Source: Pseudomonas poae (GTDB lineage Bacteria; Pseudomonadota; Gammaproteobacteria; Pseudomonadales; Pseudomonadaceae). From it: 64,000 nucleotides of DNA. A model generated the notes under the pieces. It did not search any database. It saw only the letters and a list, made by a program, of their open reading frames with translations, and was not told the origin of the DNA. The stretch is from assembly GCA_028869255.1 (NCBI GenBank), contig CP110972.1, positions 6,300,001 to 6,364,000 of the forward strand. Direction: 5' to 3'. The translations under genes were made by a program, and so were the position numbers. Positions 45,548 to 51,742 of this stretch are shown here, piece by piece; the first letter of the stretch is position 1; each line of letters opens with the position of its first letter.

Positions 45548-46766
45548 TGAGCGAGATTATCCGCCGCGACCCACGGGCCGAATGGATCGCCCGTAACCGC
45601 TTGCATCCGCTGCATGCGGCGATGCAGCCGGCAGTCCACAGCTGGATGGGACCGAATGGCATCCTGCGCAAAAACGTGCACGGCGTCGGTTTTATCGGCC
45701 CCAACGGCATCAAGCGTATCGACCGCAGCGGCGCCCAGCAGGGCGGCGCGGCCAAGCGCACGGCGGCGGTGCAAGTGCAGTTGCCGCTGCATCAGGTGCC
45801 GGCGCCAGCGTTCTATATCAACGTGGTGCCGGACATGGTCGGCGGCCGCCTGAGCAGCCACGACCGCGATTTGCTCGGCTTGGCACGGCAACTGGCGGGC
45901 AGCGACGGCGCAGTGCTGGCGGTGGTGTTTGGTGAGCATAAGGAAAGCGCGTTTGCCACGGCTGGGGTCGACCGTCTGCTGGTGCTGGAAGGCCATGAGT
46001 TCGAAGGTTATGCACCGGAGCAACGCGTTCAGGGCCTGCGCGCTGTGGATAACCAGTTCAACCCGCGTCACTGGTTGCTGCCCGATAGCCGCAGCGGGGG
46101 GGCGAGCTGGGTCGACGTTTTGCCGCGAGCCTTAAAGAGCGCCCAGCCACCCGGGTGTGGCAGATCAAGGGAGAGGAGTGCATCGGCCGTGCCGGTGCGG
46201 GCCAGGAGGATTTGGCGCGGCCGCTGCCACGCCTGATTCTGGCCGCCGCTGAATGTGCCGAGCCGGTCAGCGATACACGTCACGAAGTATTGCCCGTGGA
46301 GTTATCCACAGCCCTGGCTCGTAGCCTGCCGCGTATCGAGGATCTTGGTGCAGTGGCGGTGGACCCGGCGGCCATTCCCATGGCCGAGGCGGAGTTTATT
46401 TTCTCCGGCGGCAATGGCGTGAAGGACTGGGCCCTGTTCCACCAGACCGCCGCCGCCCTGGGCGCCACCGAAGGCGCCTCGCGGGTGGCGGTGGACGATG
46501 GCTTTATGGCGCGCGATCGCCAGGTCGGCGCCAGCGGCACCTGGGTGACTGCACGGGTTTACGTGGCCGTGGGGATTTCCGGGGCGATCCAGCATCTGCA
46601 AGGCATCGGTGCCTGCGACAAGGTGGTGGCGATCAACCTCGACCCGGGCTGCGACATGATCAAGCGTGCTGACTTGTCGGTAATCGGCGACAGCGCCGCG
46701 ATTCTGCAAGCCTTGATCGATGCGGTGCAGGTTTACCGCAACGGCGCCAAGCGCGATGCTGCTTAA
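45547..46766 (+). pseudogene. etfA: electron-transfer flavoprotein alpha subunit of the DMG operon, one-base frameshift
   Basis: An EtfA paralogue of ~406 residues dedicated to dimethylglycine demethylation. An unusual N-terminal extension (MSEIIRRDPRAEWIARNRL..) precedes the domain. The C-terminal FAD domain reads VAVGISGAIQHLQGIG and INLDPGCDMIKRADLSVIGD. The first frame breaks after LLPDSRSGG and would end at 46236. One more G in the run of seven G (46096-46102) gives GGELGRRFAASLKERPATRVWQ.. and leads into the second frame to 46766. As with dgcA, an indel error is the likely cause. Its start abuts the dgcB stop. Confidence 0.88.
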
Positions 46767-46776
46767 GGATATGGCC

Positions 46777-47547
46777 ATGACGACGACTGTAATCAGCCTG
46801 GTCTCCATCGGCGCCCACCCGACTTCCGGGCGCCCGCGCCGTGCGGAGCAGGATGCCCGCGCCGTGGAACTGGGCCTGCAAATGGCTGGGGATAAGTTGC
46901 AGGTGCTGCACGCCGGCGACATTAACGAACCGACGTTGCGCAGCTACCTGGGCATGGGCTTGCCGCAATTGCAGGTGCTGGAACAGCCGGCCGGCGCTGA
47001 TGCCTTGCCGGTGCTCAGTGACTACTTGCGCGAGGCGGGTGCCCAGGTGGTGCTTACCGGCAGCCAGGCGGAAACCGGCGAAGGCTCGGGCATGTTGCCG
47101 TTCCTGCTGGCCGAGCAATTGGGCTGGCCGTTGATTGTGGGCCTGGCGCAAGTGGAGTCTATCGAGGGCGGCGTGGCGCACGTGCTGCAGGCCCTGCCTC
47201 GCGGGCAGCGGCGCCGCTTGAAGGTGCGCCTGCCGTTTCTGGCAACGGTGGATAACGCCGCGCCCAAACCCCGGCAAAGCGCCTACGGGCCTGCACAGCG
47301 CGGGGAGTTGGCGGCCCATGAAGTGCAAATTGAGCCGGACGCATTATTCACCGACGCGCTGCTGCAACCGGCCAAGCCACGCCCCAAGCGCCTCAAGGTG
47401 ATCAAGGCCAAGAGCGGCGCTGACCGCATGAAGGCCGCAACGGCCAAGGCCAGCGGTGGCGGCGGGCAGGTGCTTAAGGGGCTCAGCCCGGAGGCGGGCG
47501 CCGAGGCCATTCTCAAGCTGCTGATAGAAGAGGGCGTAGTACGCTGA
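46777..47547 (+). CDS. etfB: electron-transfer flavoprotein beta subunit of the DMG operon
   Basis: A ~256-residue EtfB-type protein. It has an adenine-nucleotide alpha-hydrolase fold (SLVSIGAHPTSGRPRRAEQDA; VLTGSQAETGEGSGMLPFLLAEQLGWP). The C-terminal ~90 residues are basic (AKPRPKRLKVIKAKSGADRMK) and probably wrap onto the alpha subunit. It is the last gene of the operon, 10 bases after etfA. AAGGA (46765-46769) supports the ATG at 46777 over 46771. It is clearly diverged from the housekeeping EtfB, as expected for a pathway-specific ETF. Confidence 0.88.
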   Translation: MTTTVISLVSIGAHPTSGRPRRAEQDARAVELGLQMAGDKLQVLHAGDINEPTLRSYLGMGLPQLQVLEQPAGADALPVLSDYLREAGAQVVLTGSQAETGEGSGMLPFLLAEQLGWPLIVGLAQVESIEGGVAHVLQALPRGQRRRLKVRLPFLATVDNAAPKPRQSAYGPAQRGELAAHEVQIEPDALFTDALLQPAKPRPKRLKVIKAKSGADRMKAATAKASGGGGQVLKGLSPEAGAEAILKLLIEEGVVR

Positions 47548-47554
47548 TTCAAAG

Positions 47555-47578
47555 TGTGGGAGCGGGCCTGCTCCCACA
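47555..47578. terminator. REP-derived hairpin after etfB
   Basis: TGTGGGAGC (47555-47563) pairs perfectly with GCTCCCACA (47570-47578) around GGGCCT. It looks like a collapsed REP doublet and may stabilise or end the DMG operon transcript; there is no T-run. Confidence 0.5.
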
Positions 47579-47601
47579 TTGGATCTGCAGTGTTTGCGGG
47601 C

Positions 47602-48284
47602 TTACCCACAATCCCTGTTGACCCGTCTGTGGATAACCTGTTCGCGGTTGTCCACAGCCCCGTTAAATCAAGCCCTGCAGCCCTCTGTACGAAAAACAAC
47701 CAGCCTAACTGACGGTTTTTCCTGGGTTTTTCCATGGGCAAGAGCATTTTTCGGAGCAGACTTGCCCCCAAAGTCTGTTGGCGCTTCTGTGGATAAGATG
47801 TTCGCTATCGGCTACAGGCCTTATAAACAAAGGCTTTCAGTGTGTTGGTTGAAATTTGATCAATCGCACCTTGTGGCGATGAAAATCCCCACGAGAACCT
47901 TGATTTTCAAGGTGTTGAGGCGGTTTTCCACAAACAACCTAAAGTTGCCCCCAAAGTCTGTTGGTGGATATGTGGATAACATGTTCGCTAGCGGCTGCAG
48001 GCCCTATAAACAAAGGCTTGCGTAGATATGATCAAAATATGATCAATCGCCCCGGGTATGGGTTTTTTCCACGGAGCATGAGGTTTTCCACAGTGCGTCA
48101 TGCAGTTGCCCACAAACTCTGTGGTTGGTTCTGTGGATAAGATGTTGGTGCTGGGCCACAAGCGACGCAGCGCAAGGCTTTCAGAGAGTTGTACAAAAAA
48201 TGTGCAGTGACCATTATTGCGATAGGGAATAGCCCCAAGTTCATTTGGATCTAAATGCCGGGTTTGACAGTGCTGTTTTCCACA
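47602..48284. repeat. DnaA-box cluster in four tandem imperfect repeats (candidate DnaA-titration or replication-control locus)
   Basis: The 1 kb gap 47548-48551 carries no credible gene. It holds four exact DnaA boxes TGTGGATAA (47628-47636, 47788-47796, 47971-47979, 48132-48140) and five one-mismatch boxes: TTACCCACA (47602), TTGTCCACA (47648) and TTTTCCACA (47934, 48084, 48276). The exact boxes recur every 160-183 bp because the region is built of four ~170-bp imperfect repeats. Each begins like CTTGCCCCCAAAGTCTGTTGG, then the box, then GATGTTCGC; two share TATAAACAAAGGCTT. An inverted repeat ACCTTGA-TTT-TCAAGGT lies at 47897-47913. Confidence 0.7.
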
Positions 48285-48355
48285 ACTTCACTGTGACTCC
48301 ATAACACGCATTGCAAGGATGCTGGTGCGATCTCGTCATATCCAAGGAGTTATGG

Positions 48356-48442
48356 ATGATGCGCCACTTCCCCCACGCCGGTCTGTTTACCCCCCCGCCT
48401 GAAGCACCGAGTTCGCCCTTTCTCAAGTGGCGGATGTTGTAG
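48356..48442 (+). CDS. possible 28-residue peptide
   Basis: AAGGAG lies 6 bases before the ATG at 48356, which opens a 28-codon frame (MMRHFPHAGLFTPPPEAPSS.., ending TAG). It lies between the DnaA-box cluster and the tandem paralogues. Only the ribosome site supports it; chance is possible. Confidence 0.2.
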   Translation: MMRHFPHAGLFTPPPEAPSSPFLKWRML

Positions 48443-48551
48443 GTCGTTCAAACCCTTTGAGCCCGTAACCGCCTGAAGATTGCCTTCGGGCGAGGCTCGC
48501 CCGCGCAACACTGTTGTTGTATCTCACCTATGAAAAACAAGGAGTTCCCTC

Positions 48552-49325
48552 ATGGGGTCTATTACCGAACATGGAAAACTGTTGGCTTGGGTTCAAGCGC
48601 TGGATGTTCCGAAGCCTTCGGCTTCTGCCGTCCGCAAAAAGTCTGCCGTACGGCGTGCCGCCAGCGGTGACGATGATGGCGCAGCAGTGGTCAGAGGCAG
48701 CGTCACCTCGTTTGTCACCGGCCTGACGCCACAGGCGCGTGACGATGTGCAAAACAGCACACTGTTGATGCAACTGGCGGCGGATAAAAAGTACAACCCC
48801 GATACGCAGCGTGAAGAGTGGTTCAAGTTCTACACCGATGGTCTGGCCAACCTGGGTTGGGGGCGGGTGTCGTCGTTCTATCAGGACTACAAGCCGAGCA
48901 ATACCAACGTCACCATGGACCAGGTGGTGCTGGAGATTGTGAGTGCGGTGGTCAGCTCCCAGAGCGCGCTGTACAAGATCACCGAAAAAACCTTCGAGGC
49001 GCTGAAGAACAACCCGGCTAACAAGGATGCGCTGAAGTTGTTCGATACCAGCACCACGCGCAACAATATCGGCACCTTCCAGATCCTGCCGGTCATGCAG
49101 GACAAGGACGGCAACGTGGTCATGGTGCTGACCACCGTCAACGCCAGCACCACCGTGCAAAAGGGCAGTTTCCTGTTCTGGAGCTGGAGCAAGACGGATG
49201 CCTGGATGTATCGGGCGGCGCAGCAAACCGTCCTCAACGAAAATGTCTACGCCACCGTGCGCCAGGCGGTAATCAACAAGCTCGGCAAGAACGCCGAAGA
49301 CTTTATTGATGGTCTGGATATTTAA
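48552..49325 (+). CDS. uncharacterised Pseudomonas protein, tandem paralogue 1
   Basis: A 257-residue soluble protein with no signal peptide. A basic, low-complexity N-terminal tail (about 20-45) is followed by a globular domain. The segment STLLMQLAADKKYNPDTQ..EEWFKFYTDGLANLGW (about 69-105) is shared with the next gene (SNLLCQLAADKKF..AAWLDFYRTSLGKVFW). Both also share SV/VLEI- and V/IRQ..I.[ND]KLG segments near the C-terminus. CAAGGAGT stands before both ATGs. I recall similar tandem hypothetical proteins in other plant-associated pseudomonads but know of no function. The pair is flanked by the DnaA-box cluster and a bidirectional terminator. Confidence 0.75.
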   Translation: MGSITEHGKLLAWVQALDVPKPSASAVRKKSAVRRAASGDDDGAAVVRGSVTSFVTGLTPQARDDVQNSTLLMQLAADKKYNPDTQREEWFKFYTDGLANLGWGRVSSFYQDYKPSNTNVTMDQVVLEIVSAVVSSQSALYKITEKTFEALKNNPANKDALKLFDTSTTRNNIGTFQILPVMQDKDGNVVMVLTTVNASTTVQKGSFLFWSWSKTDAWMYRAAQQTVLNENVYATVRQAVINKLGKNAEDFIDGLDI

Positions 49326-49397
49326 CTGAACCGAATGGGAGCCCGGCGCCTGGCGTCGGGTGTTCCCTTTTGTTTACTGGCTCAAGGAGTATGAGCG

Positions 49398-50177
49398 ATG
49401 AGTTTGCTTGCCCCAGAAGTGTATGTAGTTTCGGGCAACCTGATATCGGCGGCGCCCTCGGTCGCGAGCCCCACCGTGCTGGACGATATGCTCGATTCCA
49501 ACCTGTTATGCCAACTGGCGGCCGACAAGAAGTTTGGCTCGCGATTTATTGATCCGGCGGCCTGGCTGGACTTTTATCGCACTTCCCTCGGCAAGGTGTT
49601 CTGGAAAATCAGCAACTCCCATACGGTCAGTTATCCCGTGCCGCCGCTGATTCGCTCGGTGAGTGTGATGGGCATACTGGAGCAGACGTTTTTCAAAGCA
49701 CTGGATCGGGACCTTCGGCATCAGCTCGAAGCGGATATCGAACTGTTGATGGAACAGCCCATCACCAGCCCGGGGTCTCTGCTGTTTAATGCCAAGAGCC
49801 ATGTTCAATTTACAAAAGATGTCCGCTCAAGTTTCGATACGCCGTGCGAGTCGGTGATCAATCTGCAGATCAGTGTGGCCCACGACGATACGGCGGTTTC
49901 GGTGTGCAGTGTTTACTTCAAGACAGCGGAGCCGGTGGGCCACGATCTGTTCAATCAGAAGTTCAAGGTTCGGGAGTTGCTGGGCAATATCAGCGTGAGT
50001 TCTTTCGACGCGAATTTGCTGGAAACCAGTTACGAAGGCATCCGTCAGCAAATCAAGGACAAGTTGGGCGCCGCCAACATTCGTGAAAACATCTGGTTGA
50101 TCGCGGACCGCCCCGTTGCCCTGCAAGGCACGCCCCACGCAGGTGCCCGGCAGTTTCTCGAAGCCTTGGAGATCTGA
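49398..50177 (+). CDS. uncharacterised Pseudomonas protein, tandem paralogue 2
   Basis: A 259-residue soluble protein, paralogous to the product at 48552 but diverged (roughly a quarter to a third identical by eye over the core). It has a shorter N-terminal tail (about 1-30). The core has QLAADKKFGSRF, FYRTSLGKVFWKISNSH and a C-terminal IRQQIKDKLG, then an extra tail ending RQFLEALEI, matching the paralogue's DFIDGLDI. CAAGGAGT precedes the ATG. It starts 72 bases after the first gene, so they form an operon. The role is unknown. Confidence 0.75.
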   Translation: MSLLAPEVYVVSGNLISAAPSVASPTVLDDMLDSNLLCQLAADKKFGSRFIDPAAWLDFYRTSLGKVFWKISNSHTVSYPVPPLIRSVSVMGILEQTFFKALDRDLRHQLEADIELLMEQPITSPGSLLFNAKSHVQFTKDVRSSFDTPCESVINLQISVAHDDTAVSVCSVYFKTAEPVGHDLFNQKFKVRELLGNISVSSFDANLLETSYEGIRQQIKDKLGAANIRENIWLIADRPVALQGTPHAGARQFLEALEI

Positions 50178-50231: not shown

Positions 50232-51527
50232 TCAGCCTTGAACCGGCACACCCTTGAGGTAAGGCGCCGGTGCCGCGCCCAGGTTGTTCAACATCCGCTC
50301 GCTGTACCAATCCACAAAGTTCACCACACCGAACTCATACGTCTTGGAATACGGGCCAGGCTGGTAAGCCGTGGAGTTGATACCGCGCTGGTTCTCTTCG
50401 GCCAGGCGACGGTCCTGGTCATTGGTGGCGTCCCACACTTTGCGCATGCGCTCTACATCGTAGTCCACACCCTCTACCGCGTCCTTGTGCACGATCCACT
50501 TGGTGGTGACCATGGTTTCCTGCGCGCTGATCGGCCACACGGTGAACACAATGATGTGGTCGCCCATGCAGTGGTTCCACGAGTGCGGCAGGTGCAGGAT
50601 GCGCATCGAGCCCAGGTCCGGGTTCTTGATGCGGCCCATCAGTTTGGCGCAGCCTTGTTTGCCGTCCATGGTCATCGACACGGTGCCCTTGAGCAGCGGC
50701 ATGCGCACGATACGGTTGCGCAGGCCGAAGCTGGCGTGAGCGTAGGGAATCTTCTCCGCGTCCCAGGCGGCGGCCGAGGCGGCTACGTGGTCCTTGAACG
50801 CCTGGTCGGCGCGTGGGTCGGTCACGTCGTCCCATTCCAGCAGGGTTTTCAACAGCTCCGGGTGCGACGCGTTGCAGTGGTAGCACTCGCGGTTGTTTTC
50901 CAGCACCAGTTTCCAGTTGGCTTTTTCGAACAAGGTGGTCTGGATCGCCACCTTGGTGTTTTCCATGTCGTAGGGTTCCATGTAGTGGTTCAGCGTCGAC
51001 AGGAAATCATCGATGGCCGGCGGGTTCTCCGCCAGGCTGATAAAGATATAGCCGCCGGCGGTCTTCACGTTCACAGGCTTGAGGCCGTACTGCTTCATGT
51101 CGAAGTCGGCACCCATCTCGGTGCCGGCGAACAGCAGGCGCCCGTCCAGCTCGTAGGTCCACTGGTGGTAGTGGCACACCAGTTTGGCAACCTTGCCCTT
51201 GTCGCTGGTGCACAGGCGTGAACCGCGGTGGCGGCACACGTTGTGGAACGCATGCACCACGCCTTCGGCGCCACGGATCACGATGATCGGGTTCTTGCCC
51301 ACTTGCAGGGTCAGGTAGTTGCCCTTGGTGGGAATCTCGCAAGTCATGCCGGCGATCAACCACTCTTTCTGGAAGATCTCCTGCATGTCGATATCAAACA
51401 GCCGCTCGTCAGAGTAGAACGGCTGCGGCAGCGAAAACGTGCGCTCGCGCTCTTGCAGCATTTGCGCGGTGGCCTTGCGTGCGGGTTCCAGCGGATCGCC
51501 CAAGCTTAAGGTTGCGGTGACGTCCAT
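50232..51527 (-). CDS. gbcA: glycine betaine monooxygenase oxygenase subunit GbcA
   Basis: A 431-residue Rieske non-haem iron oxygenase that demethylates glycine betaine to dimethylglycine, releasing formaldehyde. The Rieske cluster motif is CRHRGSRLC...CHYHQW (about 100-125). The mononuclear-iron facial triad lies around ENNRECYHCNASHPELL. The frame is open to 51590, but the ATG at 51527 (GAGGA with 8-base spacing) gives MDVTATLSLGDPLEPARKAT, the family start. It is divergent from the reductase gene gbcB; both should be GbdR-activated. Confidence 0.95.
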   Translation of the reverse strand: MDVTATLSLGDPLEPARKATAQMLQERERTFSLPQPFYSDERLFDIDMQEIFQKEWLIAGMTCEIPTKGNYLTLQVGKNPIIVIRGAEGVVHAFHNVCRHRGSRLCTSDKGKVAKLVCHYHQWTYELDGRLLFAGTEMGADFDMKQYGLKPVNVKTAGGYIFISLAENPPAIDDFLSTLNHYMEPYDMENTKVAIQTTLFEKANWKLVLENNRECYHCNASHPELLKTLLEWDDVTDPRADQAFKDHVAASAAAWDAEKIPYAHASFGLRNRIVRMPLLKGTVSMTMDGKQGCAKLMGRIKNPDLGSMRILHLPHSWNHCMGDHIIVFTVWPISAQETMVTTKWIVHKDAVEGVDYDVERMRKVWDATNDQDRRLAEENQRGINSTAYQPGPYSKTYEFGVVNFVDWYSERMLNNLGAAPAPYLKGVPVQG

Positions 51528-51555
51528 CGTGTGTGTCCTCATGGCCATTCTGTGT

Positions 51556-51742
51556 GGCCGCGATAAGTGGCTAATCAGGTTTTGCAGCAAGGCGTAAAGA
51601 AAGCGTCGTTGTTGGGAGCGAGTGTGGGGCCGCCGATGCGCCGAACCTTATCCATGAGCGACATGGCCCACTCTGATCCCGACGCGCAACCCCCGTGGTA
51701 TGGGGGCTGGTCGCGATAAGTATGTGAATGTCGCAGATAGGT
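51556..51742. promoter_or_regulatory. GRYCGCGATAAGT repeats between gbcA and gbcB
   Basis: GGCCGCGATAAGT (51556-51568) and GGTCGCGATAAGT (51709-51721) agree at 12 of 13 bases. After the second, GTCGCAGATAGG (51730-51741) repeats the GTCGC and GATA blocks 20-21 bp further, again the spacing of AraC half-sites. Probable GbdR control region, by inference. Confidence 0.45.

Follow-up and report, generated by a model that had tools for sequence, protein, structure and literature searches.

The array and its neighbourhood

The Pseudomonas poae genome is a single contig of 6,797,314 bases, and the stretch analysed here (the window) comprises its bases 6,300,001–6,364,000, 64,000 nucleotides in all; features of the array are given in window coordinates and other loci as genome positions. 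An array of DnaA boxes follows etfA (46720..47547, + strand), an ETF-domain gene that forms its upstream neighbour and points toward it. The ancestral neighbour on the far side is a Rieske oxygenase gene, presumably gbcA, at 50232..51590 on the − strand. Since this gene lies on the opposite strand to etfA, the array has convergent ancestral neighbours, neither of which is read outward from it. Between the array and the Rieske gene lie two ORFs (48552–49325 and 49398–50177) with no Pfam or NCBIfam match. The etfA–Rieske gap seems to be an insertion hot spot, because the arrays of other species sit several kilobases from etfA yet beside the Rieske gene. Regulation of an apparent 340-aa ORF downstream (50199) was considered and dismissed, this ORF being antisense to the Rieske oxygenase gene.

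The GC content of the array is 48%, compared with 59–62% in its surroundings. An earlier sequence-only reading had described the stretch as gene-free, and this is upheld: the chance ORFs examined in 47548–48551 match nothing in Pfam or NCBIfam, and 72 of the 73 arrays lack a frame that is open from the first to the last strong box (one array has such a frame). Being intergenic and conserved, the array might act as a promoter region, a small RNA or a terminator for its neighbours, and DnaA can act as a transcription factor; however, the ancestral arrangement puts it downstream of the two convergent genes. A sigma-70 match is absent from 47400–48700, terminator-like matches number one against 1.9 in shuffles, and a sample of 50 of 285 repeat units gave no consensus RNA fold on either strand. 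We regard a promoter, RNA or terminator role as very remote. A known RNA element was also sought and discarded, with no Rfam match in 46000–50000.

Four repeats share one core

Exact DnaA boxes lie on the − strand at 47628, 47788, 47971 and 48132, with spacings of 160, 183 and 161 bp, and boxes with one mismatch lie on the + strand at 47602, 47648, 47924, 48084 and 48276, reproducing the four exact boxes 160–183 bp apart and the five weaker ones first reported. At ≤1 mismatch the window holds 22 boxes, against 6.4 ± 2.3 in 100 shuffles (maximum 12). The four imperfect repeats of the sequence-only reading were likewise recovered as direct repeats starting at 47602, 47762, 47945 and 48106, repeats 1, 3 and 4 being 61, 82 and 65% identical to repeat 2. 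Its shared motifs stood in part. GATGTTCGC, said to be common to the repeats, is exact in repeat 2 only, the others carrying CCTGTTCGC, CATGTTCGC and GATGTTGGT; for the second motif, TCTGTGGATAA, repeat 3 instead has ATATGTGGATAA; and TATAAACAAAGGCTT is indeed common to two repeats, 2 and 3.

Each repeat contains a core made up of box I (+), 5 nt, a weak box II (−), 3 nt and an exact box III (−). Core 1 (47602..47636, + strand, as are all four) consists of box I TTACCCACA (+), box II TGTTGACCC (−, 4 mismatches) and box III TGTGGATAA (−). Box III is identical in the remaining cores, where it is preceded by TTGCCCCCA and TGTTGGCGC (5 mismatches) in core 2 (47762..47796), TTGCCCCCA and TGTTGGTGG (4 mismatches) in core 3 (47945..47979), and TTGCCCACA and TGTGGTTGG (3 mismatches) in core 4 (48106..48140). 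Box I of repeats 2–4, at −26 from the strong box, has 2–3 mismatches and was absent from the list of boxes first drawn up.

A unit HMM, built from 285 units with the window's own four included, places the repeat units on the + strand at 47599..47709 (E 3.5e-22), 47759..47869, 47943..48050 and 48103..48210. Extra boxes, all on the + strand, lie 20 bp after unit 1 box III, start to start (TTGTCCACA, 47648..47656), 47 bp before unit 3 box III (TTTTCCACA, 47924..47932), 48 bp before unit 4 box III (TTTTCCACA, 48084..48092) and beyond unit 4 (TTTTCCACA, 48276..48284). Exact matches to the Fis consensus start at +59 from box III in unit 3 (GATCAAAATATGATC, 48030..48044) and unit 4 (GTACAAAAAATGTGC, 48191..48205), and a one-mismatch site takes the same place in unit 2 (GGTTGAAATTTGATC, 47847..47861); unit 1 has no Fis consensus at +59 even at ≤1 mismatch. 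Between core and Fis site there is also a conserved dyad of CTGCAGGCC..GGCTTTCAG type (47810–47850 and 47993–48030), and as single-stranded DNA it gave two folds with a stability no better than shuffles. A gapped pattern search for close box pairs returned three pairs, none within the array.

Box density and relation to oriC

The genome contains 146 exact DnaA boxes, and four within 1 kb occur only at the array and at oriC (5,818,220–5,818,484, where the four lie in <0.3 kb). Across the 6.8-Mb genome no kilobase holds more exact boxes than the array and oriC, which tie for first place, and windows of three come next. The count of rival clusters proposed in the sequence-only reading thus left only oriC equal to the array for exact boxes genome-wide; at ≤1 mismatch, ranked within 5.80–6.797 Mb, the array has nine boxes, a cluster upstream of mnmG eight and oriC six. 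The mnmG-upstream cluster (5,826,255–5,827,250) combines its eight boxes with AT-rich DNA ~8 kb from oriC and might be the second replicating fragment described for Pseudomonas.

A dnaA domain is encoded at 5.817 Mb, and the array is therefore ~530 kb from the origin. The array resembles the Pseudomonas oriC (dnaA–rpmH) in its four exact boxes and differs in having no dnaA nearby, in its distance and in showing no skew switch, in agreement with the sequence-only reading, which held it unlikely to be oriC itself. A second replication origin would fit the DnaA boxes and the AT-richer DNA, and passages of PMC4403523 describe a second autonomously replicating fragment in P. aeruginosa; against this stand the 530 kb to dnaA and a GC skew of one sign in 10/10 bins of 5.8–6.8 Mb, and we consider its probability almost negligible. 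A plasmid origin was also rejected, with no similar DNA among 72,556 plasmid records.

Exact boxes drop steeply away from oriC, with 43 within 200 kb on both arms, then 14–18 in each 200-kb step out to 1.2 Mb, 9 in the step ending at 1.4 Mb and 0–3 per step beyond. This origin-proximal gradient, together with the density of the array, favours passive titration, whereby the array, duplicated early, would soak up free DnaA as a sink and involve no nucleotide chemistry. Passages of PMC12371093 report titration of E. coli DnaA by origin-proximal boxes, which we count in favour of such a sink.

The array is conserved in the genus

Relatives were chosen by EtfA similarity (best 80 of 463; the closest are all titled Pseudomonas). 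At least three copies of a box-plus-TGTT motif lie within 3.8 kb at 59 of the 80 EtfA loci, 51 of these having four, and five loci that end within 220 bases of etfA were left out as not assessable. For the 16 remaining loci, with L028 left out, 14 of 15 whole genomes carry 3–4 clustered copies elsewhere, and a whole-genome search of the last, L070, found no array. All 13 displaced arrays that were read adjoin the Rieske gene, a placement made with the antisense translation of that gene as query. Loss of the boxes from close relatives with the flanking gene retained, which had been named as a point to check, is thus rare: the array is present in 73 of 74 assessable named relatives.

A wider survey of 149 genus genomes (own included), in which copies per strand stand in for clustering and places are those among the matches listed, found the 17-base motif at ≤1 mismatch in 125, leaving 24 without it. 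At least three copies on one strand were counted in 99 genomes and at least four in 82. We searched 34 genomes for etfA (the 24 motif-free ones and 10 with one or two copies) and found it in 27; the ~1.5 kb after etfA is free of boxes at ≤1 mismatch in 20 of these, contains one in 4 and three or more in 3. The motif occurs in 65 of 148 genomes of a family sample, mostly as one or two copies outside the genus.

Fixed core geometry and helical spacing

Box I, of TTGCCCMCA type, lies exactly 26 bp before the strong box in 156/156 pattern pairs and has ≤3 mismatches to the DnaA box in 282/285 units. The box II slot, 12 bp before the strong box, begins TGT in 282/285 units, yet has 3–6 mismatches in 283/285; slot 4 and some single-core loci come closer to consensus. 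When offsets were ranked, −26 held the top box-like site in slots 1, 2 and 4 and the third in slot 3; the box II offset came 6th in slot 1, outside the top nine in slot 2, 9th in slot 3 and 2nd in slot 4.

The box II slot is strongly kept in slots 2–3, though poor as a box. This could mean that the repeats mainly bind another protein, for example in chromosome folding or segregation, with DnaA secondary or absent, and much of the conserved 110-bp unit is indeed non-box (the box II slot, the dyad and TGATCA). But every unit is anchored by a DnaA box with a second box-like site at −26, and we consider a principal role for another protein highly improbable.

The spacers were compared with alternatives. 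Among 208 spacer pairs, (5,3) was commonest in 1 Mb of the own genome at ≤6 mismatches (5 matches vs a mean of 0.15) and still led with the array masked (3 vs 0.12). It also led at six loci of a sister genus, g12, with 30 matches at ≤7 mismatches against a mean of 0.6, (15,3) having 17. At ≤7 mismatches over the same 1 Mb, (5,3) gave 6 matches and (3,5) gave 5; inside the own array box matches leave the split of the 8 spacer bases unfixed, with 5 matches for (8,0) and 4 for (5,3).

Successive strong boxes in 65 arrays are 149–150, 160–161, 171–172, 180–183 or 192–193 bp apart, with no values between. Placed on a tree, 52 four-copy arrays give a best period of 10.7 bp and require at least 12 ladder-step changes, 6, 4 and 2 in the three gaps; one- or two-base spacing changes occur too. 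The observed concentration of spacings was reached by 0/5000 random draws of distinct values, ancestry not entering the draws. Boxes of sequence TTTTCCACA also keep to steps, lying 46–48 bp (55 cases) or 57–58 bp (12) before a strong box, and 26 bp once. This helical ladder would be independent evolutionary evidence for the cores acting as one nucleoprotein complex.

Matches to the published Fis consensus average 1.97 per array, where shuffles give 0.56; a count this high is reached in 11% of individual shuffles. In the 115 bp searched from each strong box, 134 of 138 exact matches start at +59 or +60. By slots 1–4 of the four-copy arrays, exact matches number 9, 34, 46 and 29 of 64 units (118/256). 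The consensus matches are thus striking in position, not in number. The six g12 loci carry 4–8 exact Fis matches against 1.0–1.6 in shuffles. The exact IHF consensus WATCAANNNNTTR is not enriched, at 0.014 per array compared with 0.032 in shuffles; allowing one mismatch gives 1.01 per array compared with 0.65, scattered over several offsets, and three of the six g12 loci have one exact match.

A passive sink has no need of a fixed 26-bp partner site, a constant Fis place or helical-turn spacing, all of which argue against titration, and the degeneracy of box II, which matters less to a sink, speaks for it. We return to titration below with the isolated cores.

Comparison with DARS1, DARS2 and datA of E. 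coli

In passages of PMC10380432 and PMC8682772 the mark of a DARS is that boxes I and II are opposed and that the spacing of I, II and III is equal between loci. We located both loci in E. coli MG1655 by position and box pattern: DARS1 (813,107) reads TTATCCACT-5-TGTGGATAA-3-TGTGTATTA and DARS2 (2,969,135) TTATTCACC-5-TGTGGATAG-3-TGTGAAGAA. The Pseudomonas array has the same orientation and the same 5- and 3-nt spacers, with box II weak in the genus. It shares with DARS1 (bioD–uvrB, 101 bp) the opposition of box I to II and III and the intergenic setting; DARS1 differs in having one core and other neighbours, and its affinity order is reversed, box II being exact and III weak. The core geometry of DARS2 (rppH–mutH region, 455 bp) is identical to that of the array, and DARS2 has Fis sites beside its core in the passages of the papers that describe it, as the array has Fis-consensus sites. 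In contrast, DARS2 has one core where the array has four, and it requires IHF as well; because the exact IHF site is not enriched in the arrays, we do not class the Pseudomonas array as a DARS2. Neither DARS1 nor DARS2 matches the unit HMM at E≤0.01. In setting the array agrees with a DARS, being intergenic and at a conserved distance from oriC.

E. coli datA is likewise a cluster of boxes in noncoding DNA, roughly 0.5 Mb from oriC. A datA-like array would promote hydrolysis of DnaA-bound ATP after initiation. In keeping with this, the array is noncoding, has clustered boxes and lies ~0.5 Mb from oriC, its phasing implies ordered DnaA assembly, one-mismatch IHF sites are slightly above shuffles and half of the g12 loci have the exact site. 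The box layout of datA is nevertheless different, with no array-type triple at ≤7 mismatches and one at 8, and datA depends on IHF, whose exact site is below the shuffled frequency in the arrays. Minimal datA requires boxes 2, 3 and 7 and an IHF site in the passages of PMC5742627 that define it, and the array lacks this combination. We judge a datA-like role quite improbable.

Related cores elsewhere on the chromosome and in other genera

The cluster of the sequence-only reading is real, and it is not alone: related cores lie at other conserved places. At ≤2 mismatches the core pattern matches nine places in the own genome, four of them the array cores; a pair lies on the other arm (5,193,905/5,194,270) and single cores at 6,385,371 and 6,637,605. 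The unit HMM matches the 5.194-Mb pair (E 8e-18 and 3e-7), the 6.637-Mb core (2e-12) and the 6.385-Mb core (4e-7, two matches). A further core-pattern match lies at 1,930,482–1,930,516, ~2.9 Mb from dnaA; it is letter-identical in at least 4 of 18 other genomes (G017, G032, G135 and G209), and also in G132.

All 18 further genomes match the core pattern. Read backwards, the pattern has no match in the own genome, the 18 (among the matches listed) or 195 genomes of the order. Distances were tabulated for 11 genomes (own and 10 others), leaving out G032, G081, G095, G209, G264 and three g12 genomes; one of them, G003, has no array. In 8 of the 10 array-bearing genomes the array lies 467–575 kb from oriC on the same arm, and the other two carry it on the opposite one, 357 and 541 kb away. 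Those eight genomes have further cores at 510–612 and 820–990 kb on the arm of the array and at 623–868 kb on the other, and three of them a core beyond 2.6 Mb. The unit HMM found nothing in reversed sequence and did not match two G003 loci.

The sister genus g12, which would include P. aeruginosa, has six loci with 8, 7, 8, 8, 6 and 8 cores, mostly as 113- or 124-bp pairs; box II has 2–5 mismatches, and the unit HMM matches these arrays with E down to 4e-16. A seventh g12 locus, L135, carries a different array and was left out of the counts. At L130, the sole g12 locus examined for setting, a thioesterase gene and a PCu(A)C gene flank the array and converge on it. In five g12 genomes the array is 37–49 kb from dnaA (four assume circular contigs). 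Among loci of other genera, L138 has four clear cores, L137, L139 and L140 partial ones only, and L141 none.

In a survey of 195 genomes across the order, 67 carry the core pattern at ≤1 mismatch. Other families account for 186 of the genomes surveyed and for 58 of those that match, 49 of which match once. We read 28 such loci, supplied by 27 of these 58 genomes. At 23 of the loci no open frame of 100 aa covers the core, and the unit model matches 20 at E≤0.01 (a comparison made with no reversed control), 8 near full length. That these single cores are oriC was considered and set aside: when ORFs from the own oriC region were compared with the 28 loci by tblastn, the sole match was of ParA type, in L216, in a search that a short RpmH could escape. 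The core thus looks older than the array.

Isolated single cores that retain the array geometry are likewise not expected of a sink. Titration is a serious rival all the same, because box II is degenerate and the DARS function of the array is putative, and we rate it as possible but unlikely.

A candidate tandem DARS-type locus

Our preferred reading is that the array may be a conserved cis-acting DnaA-control locus of four DARS-type cores, serving DnaA reactivation, and we judge the case for it evenly balanced. For it speak a core geometry identical to that of E. coli DARS1 and DARS2 and a convergent noncoding setting, here and at L130; against it count the degenerate box II, the lack of exact IHF enrichment and the 24 of 149 genus genomes that are motif-free. 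The initial label of 'datA/DARS-like' is retained in its DARS half, for a conserved noncoding cluster distinct from oriC and with DARS core geometry, and dropped in its datA half, where the layout differs and exact IHF is unenriched. The array is a putative DARS-like variant and not a proven DARS; it agrees in geometry, setting and position but not in IHF.

In the mechanism we propose for a DARS-type array, DnaA, probably ADP-DnaA, would occupy boxes I and II head to head, with box III stabilising the complex. Fis would bend or bridge each unit, and the four cores would stack on one helix face. As at E. coli DARS, ADP would be loosened and DnaA would reload ATP, so that ATP-DnaA rises before the next initiation, and the ~0.5-Mb distance from oriC would set the time at which the dose of the array doubles. 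The genome also encodes a second DnaA-domain protein, of 243 aa (766,933–767,370), which is probably Hda; as it fits Hda, we infer that ADP-DnaA would be made.

More tentatively, at somewhat less than an even prospect, the array may belong to a chromosome-wide DARS-type family: a helically phased array of four cores (six to eight in g12) with single and paired cores at conserved distances on both replichores, grown from a single core kept in other families of the order, and relying on Fis, with IHF used little or not at all.

DARS is reported in passages of PMC4245941 and PMC5742627 to be conserved in related beta- and gamma-proteobacteria. The titles and abstracts searched, and the main text of the E. 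coli DnaA papers, contain no report of DARS or datA in Pseudomonas, most subscription literature and the DARS2 species supplement lying outside this scope; the same literature gives no account of how Pseudomonas DnaA is reset. A compact array with natural copy-number and spacing variants and losses makes that question directly testable. The array may help to time chromosome replication and, if the proposed family is real, DARS would be an ancient, copy-number-tunable device and not something peculiar to E. coli and its close relatives.
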